The translations under genes and the position numbers were made by a program. A stretch of 36,147 nt of DNA from Alphaproteobacteria bacterium (GTDB taxonomy: Bacteria; Pseudomonadota; Alphaproteobacteria; Rhodobacterales; Rhodobacteraceae). The notes under the pieces were generated by a model. It saw only the letters and a list, made by a program, of their open reading frames with translations. It ran no database searches and was not told where the DNA came from. Location of the stretch: NCBI GenBank assembly GCA_030428915.1, contig JAUIDM010000006.1, positions 1 through 36,147 on the forward strand, given 5' to 3'. Below are positions 21,026 to 27,789 of the stretch, in pieces; position 1 is the first letter of the stretch; each line of letters starts with the position of its first letter.

Positions 21026-21316
21026 CTACTTGACTGCCGGTTCGGAGACAAGCCGCGCCTCGCCCATCATGGCGATCAGCAGTTCGATATGGCGAAGAAA
21101 GCTGTAGCTGGCATCGCCGGCGCGTCGGGTGGATTCCATCCGCTCTTCTTCTGCCAGAAGAATGGCAAGGGCCCGGTCGGGTGAGGGCGCGTTAGCGGTA
21201 CGCATCACTCGGCCAAGGTCGCGACCGCGCCTGTAGTCCACAACCCCTGCGCGTGCGGCGCGGATCAGAAGGCGGGGGCGGCGCAGGTCGCGGACCATGG
21301 ACAGGATATCGGACAT
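21026..21316 (-). CDS. DUF6477-like small protein
   Basis: M(MM)SDILSMVRDLRRPRLLIRAARAGVVDYRRGRDLGRVMRTANAPSPDRALAILLAEEERMESTRRAGDASYSFLRHIELLIAMMGE; three tandem ATGs (21322/21319/21316), the last has best SD spacing from GGGAGA. Confidence 0.75.
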   Translation of the reverse strand: MSDILSMVRDLRRPRLLIRAARAGVVDYRRGRDLGRVMRTANAPSPDRALAILLAEEERMESTRRAGDASYSFLRHIELLIAMMGEARLVSEPAVK

Positions 21317-21318
21317 CA

Positions 21319-21351
21319 TCATTCTCCCGGATCGTTTCGGCGGGAGAATGA
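21319..21351. promoter_or_regulatory. Perfect 11-bp inverted repeat over the DUF6477 start/SD
   Basis: TCATTCTCCCG (21319-21329) - gatcgtttcgg - CGGGAGAATGA (21341-21351). Confidence 0.65.
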
Positions 21352-21449
21352 AACAGGACGAGGACATGTTGCGGATTGTTGCCGGGCAGCGTCCGCCAGA
21401 TTCAAGGAAATTTATAATTTATCAACAATTCTCAGGAACGTGCTCGGCC

Positions 21450-21510
21450 TTAACGATCAGGTAACGAATGCAACCGACGGTTGCTGAGGATTTGGTTAAG
21501 GCGGCGTAAA
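21450..21510. promoter_or_regulatory. Near-consensus CtrA-like motifs upstream of the DUF6456 gene
   Basis: TTAA-CGATCAG-GTAA (21450-21464) and TTAA-GGCGGCG-TAAA (21496-21510; reverse TTTA-N7-TTAA). Confidence 0.35.
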
Positions 21511-21536
21511 CCGCCGAAAAATGTTCGGGGAAAAAT

Positions 21537-22682
21537 ATGACGGTAATGATCCAACTGCCAGCGGGTTTGCCCGGCTGGCTGCCGGAAAACGCGCGCCTCT
21601 ATCTACGCCATATCGAAGAGGGGCAATCGCTCCGGGCGATCGCCCGATCCGAGGGCTGCCACGCTTCGACGGTCCTGCGAAAGGTCCGCGCGTTCGAAAA
21701 CCGCCGTGACGATCCCCTGATCGACGAGGCTTTGAACCGGCTGGGCTGCTTCTTCGCGCGCCCAGCCGCGCCGGGCCGAGCACAGGAGAGAACGCCAGAA
21801 ACATCGACCCAGGAAGGAACTTGCCCAATGAGTGCACCGATCCGTTCAAGCCAGATCCAGATTGCCGATGAAGCAACGTTGCAGCGCGAGGGTCGCCGGA
21901 TTTTGCGGCGGCTTTGCGAAATCGGCGCCGTCCTGGTGGTTGCGGCGGAAATGGAAAAGGCTGTGGTTTTGAAAGGCACGGTCAGAACAGCGGTTGTGGA
22001 CCGCGCCGTCGCGCAGGCTTTTGCCCTGAAGGACTGGATTGCCGTGCAAAAAAGCGGCCGGGTGACGACCTATGAGATCACTGGTGCCGGTCGGTCAGCA
22101 CTGAAGCGGCTTTTGGCTGACGAGCAGGCGGCGCGGACGAGCGGTTCTGTCGATGCCCACAACCCGTTCGGCGAGCAGCACCGCGACTGGGGAGAGTGCA
22201 CCGTGAGCGGCGATGAAGACCGCAGCCAGCGCCGCATCCGCTACAATCTCGCCGAGAGCCCGCTGGCGGTATTGGCGCGGCGGAAGGAGAAGGACGGCAC
22301 CCCCTTTCTCGGCGCCGATCTGGTGGCGGCGGGGGAGCGGCTGCGCGAGGATTTCGAACTGGCGCAGATGGGGCCGCGCGTGGCGCAGAACTGGGACCGG
22401 TTCCTGACAGCGGGCGAGCGGGGCAGTTTCGGCGCGGATGGCGGGGGCGGCGGCGGCTCGGGCCGGGCGCGGGATCGTGTTGCGGCGGCCTTGCGCGATC
22501 TGGGACCGGGACTGGGCGACATGGTGCTGCGTTGCTGCTGCTTCCTGGAAGGGCTGGAGGCGGCGGAAAAGCGCATGGGCTGGTCGGCCCGGTCCGGCAA
22601 GATTGTCCTGCGGATCGCGTTGCAGCGGCTGAAGCGGCACTACGATGAAACTTATGGTGGGCAGGCACCGTTGATCGGCTGA
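21537..22682 (+). CDS. HTH + DUF6456 protein, candidate GafA-type gene transfer agent activator
   Basis: N-terminal HTH (YLRHIEEGQSLRAIARSEGCHASTVLRKVRAFENRRDDPLIDEALNRLG) and C-terminal DUF6456-like region (RIRYNLAESPLAVLARRKEKDGTPFLGADLVAAGERLREDFELAQMGPRVAQNWDRF...LRCCCFLEGLEAAEKRMGWSARSGKIVLRIALQRLKRHY). Confidence 0.8.
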   Translation: MTVMIQLPAGLPGWLPENARLYLRHIEEGQSLRAIARSEGCHASTVLRKVRAFENRRDDPLIDEALNRLGCFFARPAAPGRAQERTPETSTQEGTCPMSAPIRSSQIQIADEATLQREGRRILRRLCEIGAVLVVAAEMEKAVVLKGTVRTAVVDRAVAQAFALKDWIAVQKSGRVTTYEITGAGRSALKRLLADEQAARTSGSVDAHNPFGEQHRDWGECTVSGDEDRSQRRIRYNLAESPLAVLARRKEKDGTPFLGADLVAAGERLREDFELAQMGPRVAQNWDRFLTAGERGSFGADGGGGGGSGRARDRVAAALRDLGPGLGDMVLRCCCFLEGLEAAEKRMGWSARSGKIVLRIALQRLKRHYDETYGGQAPLIG

Positions 22683-26838: not shown

Positions 26839-27789
26839 GTGCGCGATCTCAAAATTCCCGACCAGCGCCACCCGGAAAAGGCGCACCGCCCCGATCAGGC
26901 GCAGCCGAAGAAGCCCGACTGGATCCGGGTCAAGGCCCCGACCTCGGCCGGCTACAAGGCGACCCGCGACATTTTGCGCAGCAACAAGCTGGTAACAGTC
27001 TGCGAAGAGGCGGGCTGTCCGAATGTCGGCGAATGCTGGTCGCAGGGCCATGCGACCATGATGATCATGGGCGAGATCTGTACCCGCGGCTGTTCGTTCT
27101 GCAATATCGCCACCGGCCGGCCGGAAGCGCTTGATGTGTTCGAACCGGGCCGCGTCGCCCATGCGGTGGAGACGCTGGGGCTGAATCACGTCGTCATCAC
27201 CTCGGTCGACCGCGACGATCTGGAGGATGGCGGGGCGGAACATTTCGCCCAGACGATCCGCGCGATCCGCCATCGTTCGCCTGAGACGACGATCGAGATC
27301 CTGACGCCGGATTTCCTGAAATGCGAGCCGGACGTACTGGAAAAGGTTGTGGAGGCGCGGCCTGATGTCTTCAACCACAATCTTGAAACCGTACCGGGCC
27401 TCTATCCTTCCGTCCGTCCCGGCGCACGCTATTTCCATTCGCTGCGCCTTTTGCAGCGGGTGAAGGAACTGGACCCGGCAATGTTCACCAAATCGGGCAT
27501 CATGGTCGGACTCGGCGAGAACGCACAGGAGGTGCGGCAGGTCATGGACGACATGCGCGCCGCCGATATCGATTTCCTGACCATCGGTCAGTACCTGCAA
27601 CCGACGCCGAAGCACCACCGGGTCGATCGCTTCGTAACGCCCGAGGAATTTAAGGGCTATGAGAAGGCCGCCTATGGCAAGGGCTTTCTCATGGTTTCGG
27701 CCACGCCGCTGACCCGGTCCTCCTATCACGCGGGCGACGATTTCGCGCGGCTTCGGGCGGCGCGGCTGGAGCGGCTTGGCAGCAGGTGA
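26839..27789 (+). CDS. lipA: Lipoyl synthase
   Basis: [14 protein letters not shown] and [15 protein letters not shown] Fe-S motifs; GTG start. Confidence 0.97.

Follow-up and report, generated by a model that had tools for sequence, protein, structure and literature searches.

The gafA gene of the 36,147-nt stretch of DNA analysed here (the window) very likely contains a second, internal translation start that is under RNA-level selection across the family. Its product, GafA, is most probably a GafY-GafZ fusion translated from two starts, giving the full-length protein and a predicted GafZ-like form of ~284 residues with a likely helper role. The open reading frame at 21537–22682 is a genuine gafA, and its conserved internal Shine-Dalgarno (SD)/ATG signal lies far above chance. 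The gene and its surroundings have the following features:

21026–21367, minus strand: DUF6477 gene, homologue of rcc01866 (PF20083, E = 1.8e-34)
21450–21465, plus strand: CtrA-type site TTAAC-N6-GTAAC, TTAACGATCAGGTAAC, 71 nt before the gafA ATG
21527–21532, plus strand: Shine-Dalgarno-like GGGGAA of the full-length start, read from the sequence (duplex −5.7 kcal/mol)
21537–22682, plus strand: gafA, full-length product of 381 aa (DUF6456, E = 2.9e-63)
21585–21746, plus strand: GafY-like HTH module, residues 17–70 (AlphaFold helices; weak HTH_38/HTH_23 matches)
21762–21851, plus strand: hypervariable linker predicted to be disordered, residues 76–105 (pLDDT <50; gappy, unconserved alignment columns)
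21870–22142, plus strand: central domain, residues 112–202 (AlphaFold pLDDT about 90)
22239–22649, plus strand: DUF6456 domain (PF20057, profile match)
26839–27789, plus strand: lipA, lipoyl synthase, a conserved synteny partner of gafA (PMC6363796)

The assembly comprises 4.38 Mb in 568 contigs, of which the window is C61, and the closest named relatives of the organism are Defluviimonas and other Rhodobacteraceae. A preliminary description had proposed a 381-aa GafA-type protein with an HTH at about residues 20–70 and a C-terminal DUF6456-like region, and both modules are borne out: the profile search places DUF6456 at residues 235–371, the sole DUF6456 in the assembly, and the AlphaFold model has helices at residues 17–27, 32–39 and 43–58, with weak profile matches of the N-terminal region to HTH_38 and HTH_23. 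That region aligns with its counterpart in R. capsulatus, and the protein is ~65% identical to the homologue L092 of R. capsulatus SP108. The region equivalent to the central domain binds the omega subunit of RNA polymerase in R. capsulatus (PMC9638019). A fold search of the PDB with the whole GafA model returned no match with E <0.1; a weak fold match to the sigma region-4-like structure 3hug (probability 0.9+) agrees with the published sigma-like reading of GafA and is no proof of it. GafA homologues occur in all 22 members of the genus and in 276 of 298 genomes of the family, and dN/dS of gafA against congeners is 0.11–0.14.

The locus supports the same identification. The CtrA-type motif is the only perfect match in the window, where 100 shuffles gave none, and gafA promoters are known to have a CtrA site 65–71 nt before the start codon (PMC6363796); a motif resembling it lies 5' of gafA in 97 of 175 homologues. 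The divergent DUF6477 gene is found 5' of gafA at 71/71 loci, R. capsulatus included, and lipA lies within 3 kb 3' of gafA at 51 of these 71, R. capsulatus being among the loci examined. The gene thus resembles R. capsulatus gafA (rcc01865), a direct activator of the gene transfer agent (GTA) RcGTA (PMC9638019, PMC6363796), in full-length homology, in its three modules, in the CtrA site and in its rcc01866/DUF6477 and lipA neighbours. It differs in that the R. capsulatus protein is described as a single 382-aa product, and in that the genome of the window is without the RcGTA structural genes. The earlier naming of rcc01865/rcc01866 as the GafA pair has to be corrected, since R. capsulatus gafA is the single ORF rcc01865 and rcc01866 is the adjacent divergent gene (PMC9638019, PMC6363796).

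The internal start lies in the linker, within a frame that runs uninterrupted from 21537 to 22682:

21811–21817, plus strand: internal Shine-Dalgarno AGGAAGG (−6.5 kcal/mol; RNA-level conservation and synonymous-codon test)
21828–21830, plus strand: internal start codon ATG, codon 98 (conserved in homologues)
21828–22682, plus strand: predicted 284-aa GafZ-like isoform with the central and DUF6456 domains (homologous to separate gafZ ORFs and equivalent to GafA-Cx(87-382))

The AGGAAGG, the ATG, the 10-nt spacer between them and the 284-aa product are all as first described. The further claim that the internal SD is stronger than that of the full-length start is right for the gene in the window, marginally (−6.5 vs −5.7 kcal/mol), and fails for the family, where the means over 175 homologues are about equal (internal −6.22, full-length −6.61 kcal/mol). 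The open-access main texts on GafA consulted here, the R. capsulatus papers included, mention neither an internal start nor an isoform; the internal start is thus new as far as this literature goes, and the regulator itself is known.

The position of the start has a counterpart outside the family. Across sampled members of the class, other alphaproteobacterial families usually encode the DUF6456 region in an ORF of its own, which begins at the same module boundary and is preceded or overlapped by a separate HTH ORF. A strong SD stands before many of these gafZ ORFs, and in several the start overlaps the stop of the HTH ORF as TGATG or TAATG. This arrangement agrees with Caulobacter, in which GafY and GafZ are two ORFs (PMC11150451), and with the Hyphomicrobiales, in which gafA is split in two genes (PMC9638019); it is to these that the two-ORF form belongs, and not to R. 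capsulatus as the preliminary description had it when it placed the break point between the modules. The window shares their module boundary, its internal ATG corresponding to the gafZ start, and differs from them in being one fused ORF that retains the second start. The simplest history would have the two genes of an ancestral gafY-gafZ operon joined in the lineage of the Rhodobacteraceae: the gafY stop disappeared, and the gafZ ribosome-binding site and ATG stayed. One ORF with an in-frame internal start and a shared stop is also the plan of phage endolysin genes that encode two polypeptides (PMC9430671), which differ in that gafA encodes a transcription regulator whose halves are separate genes elsewhere. 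Two relatives have divided frames, G076 with an in-frame TAA just 5' of an intact SD and ATG and G019 with a frameshift and an ATGA overlap; these were rejected as proof of internal initiation, as both genomes have decayed GTA genes and the split genes may be pseudogenes. Among phages, only separate HTH or DUF6456-like pieces were found as relatives of the fused protein: a freshwater phage (MW462191.1:76124-76648) encodes a protein related to the GafZ half, with 36% identity across 50% of the query, and the matches in Rhodobacter phages are confined to the HTH half.

The properties of a known fragment suggest what the second product could do. GafA-Cx(87-382), which covers almost the same residues as the predicted isoform, was constructed as an artificial truncation, with no suggestion that it occurs naturally (Sherlock and Fogg 2022, PMC9638019); it is dimeric, binds omega and activates the gafA promoter although it lacks the HTH, and its overexpression raises GTA production in the wild type, although it cannot replace full-length GafA (PMC9638019). 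Caulobacter GafZ acts in anti-termination, in elongation past a terminator (PMC11150451). We infer that initiation at codon 98 takes place in cells and that the two forms divide the work as follows. Full-length GafA from the first start would bind GTA promoters through its HTH, contact omega through its central region and bind promoter DNA through its C-terminal DUF6456 half. Initiation at codon 98 would yield the ~284-aa GafZ-like protein, consisting of the central and DUF6456 domains only, which most likely forms dimers both with itself and with the full-length protein and may boost the gafA promoter, supply an elongation or anti-termination role, or both. A stronger version, in which gafA works as a two-in-one operon, the free GafZ-like protein is needed beside the full-length one and the ratio of the forms determines how strongly GTA is induced, by way of gafA promoter self-activation and transcription read-through, seems to us evenly poised between right and wrong.

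Codon 98 could also be a real start whose product is a dominant-negative brake limiting GTA release. Regulators truncated of their DNA-binding domain are often inhibitory, the Tn5 transposase inhibitor being an example, and a short form without the HTH would fit this pattern. The fact that GafA and Cx both dimerise (PMC9638019) would suit such a brake as well; against it, Cx overexpression activated the gafA promoter and increased GTA production rather than reducing it (PMC9638019), and Caulobacter GafZ is an activator (PMC11150451). The Cx activation data and the part of Caulobacter GafZ in elongation make a helper role more likely in our analysis, and the brake unlikely.

The case for the start itself is made by its conservation. 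Met98 is present in all 106 non-redundant homologues of a first set, and in a wider Rhodobacteraceae set of 189, to which the most divergent homologues were deliberately added and in which R. capsulatus is included, it stands in the exact column in 172 and within five residues in 176. The homologues that have it span most of the sampled genera. R. capsulatus SP108 L092 has the equivalent SD and ATG, with the Met at about residue 87 when numbered from an in-frame ATG near the usual start, so that the number in SB1003 (382 aa) may differ by two. In a 42-sequence alignment, Met98 is the sole invariant column between D63 and E118. Neither the length nor the sequence of the linker around it is constrained, and disorder is predicted there (pLDDT <50 over residues 76–105), so the protein structure is unlikely to require this Met. 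The 13 of 189 homologues without an internal Met, 12 of which come from the divergence-picked set, have shortened linkers and lie mostly in one fast-evolving part of the tree; their genomes retain GTA_TIM genes, so the short form must be dispensable in these 13 lineages.

The RNA signal is conserved along with the codon. When SD strength is taken as the pairing of positions −18 to −5 with the 3' tail of the 16S rRNA, the internal SD has a mean of −6.21 kcal/mol and reaches −4 kcal/mol or lower in 94% of homologues. Codon-shuffled linkers have a mean of −2.17 kcal/mol and reach that level in 22.5% of cases (Wilcoxon p = 1.5e-30 against the observed values), the lowest mean of 200 shuffled sets was not below −2.97, and only 33% of the further in-frame ATGs downstream in gafA reach −4 kcal/mol. 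The signal is written by differing residue pairs (KD 55, KE 35, EG 15, ED 12, EE 10), which argues that it is the RNA and not the peptide that is conserved. A synonymous-recoding null around the SD proved uninformative, as the amino acids there already determine the SD, and a test of codon choice was used instead. Lysine before D or E is encoded by AAG rather than AAA in a ratio of 88:2 at the SD and 32:32 in the rest of the linker (p = 4.8e-13), and glutamate before D or E is GAG rather than GAA 22:0 at the SD and 82:80 elsewhere in the linker (p = 2.4e-6); the homologues share ancestry, so that these p-values and the Wilcoxon value above overstate the number of independent events, and the direction is consistent. 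In the EG register, in which the SD requires GAA, the glutamate is GAA in 15/15. The mRNA is also more open at the internal ATG, where folding energy has a trough of −5 against about −13 kcal/mol around it; after correction for composition the trough stands at z of about +1 against about 0 elsewhere and is thus partly independent of composition. Conserved signal, SD-matched synonymous codons and reduced mRNA structure together make initiation at the site first described very likely.

These data bear on two further explanations. The SD and ATG might be left over from the former gafZ start and be undergoing slow loss, with little or no protein made from them. The fusion history offers a ready relic, and the 13 divergent members that lack the signal keep their GTA genes; a relic, however, would decay alongside the linker, and here the linker has been replaced many times while the SD and ATG stay, the synonymous codons fit the SD and flip with its register, and the open trough persists, which renders this explanation very unlikely. 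Still more improbable is that the Met and the charged pair before it are kept for the protein, as part of a docking motif M-[TS]-A-P-I-R with an incidental likeness to an SD: the residues following Met98 are fairly conserved (T/S, A, P, I, R) and such a motif may coexist with the start, but the residues before the Met change freely while the SD is kept, the synonymous bias is specific to the SD, the region is predicted to be disordered and separate gafZ genes start at this very boundary.

The genome of the window has an intact gafA and little left for it to activate among RcGTA genes. In the assembly, which is 96% complete, the profile search gave a single GTA_TIM match, on contig C392, in an 841-codon frame (L027:5695-8196, minus strand) that joins TerL up to the Walker B region to g15 from TIM position 204. 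About 11.4 kb is missing by comparison with intact relatives, and this terL::g15 remnant is all that was found of an RcGTA-type structural cluster in the assembly. The absence of a GTA cluster, which the preliminary description gave as a ground for refuting its proposal, holds in part here; such a cluster characterises the regulon rather than the GafA protein. The only capsid gene found belongs to an unrelated prophage on C151 (L256), which was rejected as a GTA: it is of the HK97 type, with portal, Clp-type protease, capsid and its own 551-aa terminase. Most members of the genus retain a full-length GTA_TIM gene. In this genome, therefore, the short form cannot at present modulate GTA induction as proposed; in the many relatives with a retained cluster it may. 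Since gafA dN/dS is still 0.11–0.14, the cluster may have been lost only recently, or GafA may retain further targets.

The deletion itself recurs. An identical terL::g15 junction is found in seven genomes of several genera (L027, L263, L266, L270, L271, L272 and L273), which include isolates and a complete genome. The deleted forms are not grouped in a g15 tree, requiring at least 4 changes, and a brief coding similarity (GPQFDAAWxDE / PQSKPVWFTE) coincides with the junction; this points either to a single hot spot where deletion recurred or to a deletion allele that spread locally. The fused frame is open over 841 codons in two species (L027:5695-8196, minus strand, vs L263:6337-8766; 77% DNA identity) with dN/dS of about 0.13, as if still under selection, and is frameshifted in G019 and G076. 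A different and smaller deletion, of about 1.5 kb, lies inside the GTA tail region of L264 (G021). Five genomes (G004, G007, G132, G274 and G314) have multiple GTA_TIM genes (3–8 matches), which suggests extra GTA-like prophages beside the RcGTA cluster. Broken gafA genes (G033, G204, G076, G019 and G144) tend to go with broken or missing GTA genes, a pattern to be expected of a gene devoted to GTA; the genome of the window, in which gafA is intact and the cluster deleted, is an exception.

Among gene transfer agents, the best studied have GafA as their master switch. An isoform resembling GafZ, if it occurs naturally, would unite the fused system of Rhodobacter with the split systems of Caulobacter and the Hyphomicrobiales, and would explain why the artificial Cx fragment activates the gafA promoter alone. 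It would also alter the reading of gafA knock-outs, tags and overexpression, since the short form would survive an upstream stop or an N-terminal tag.
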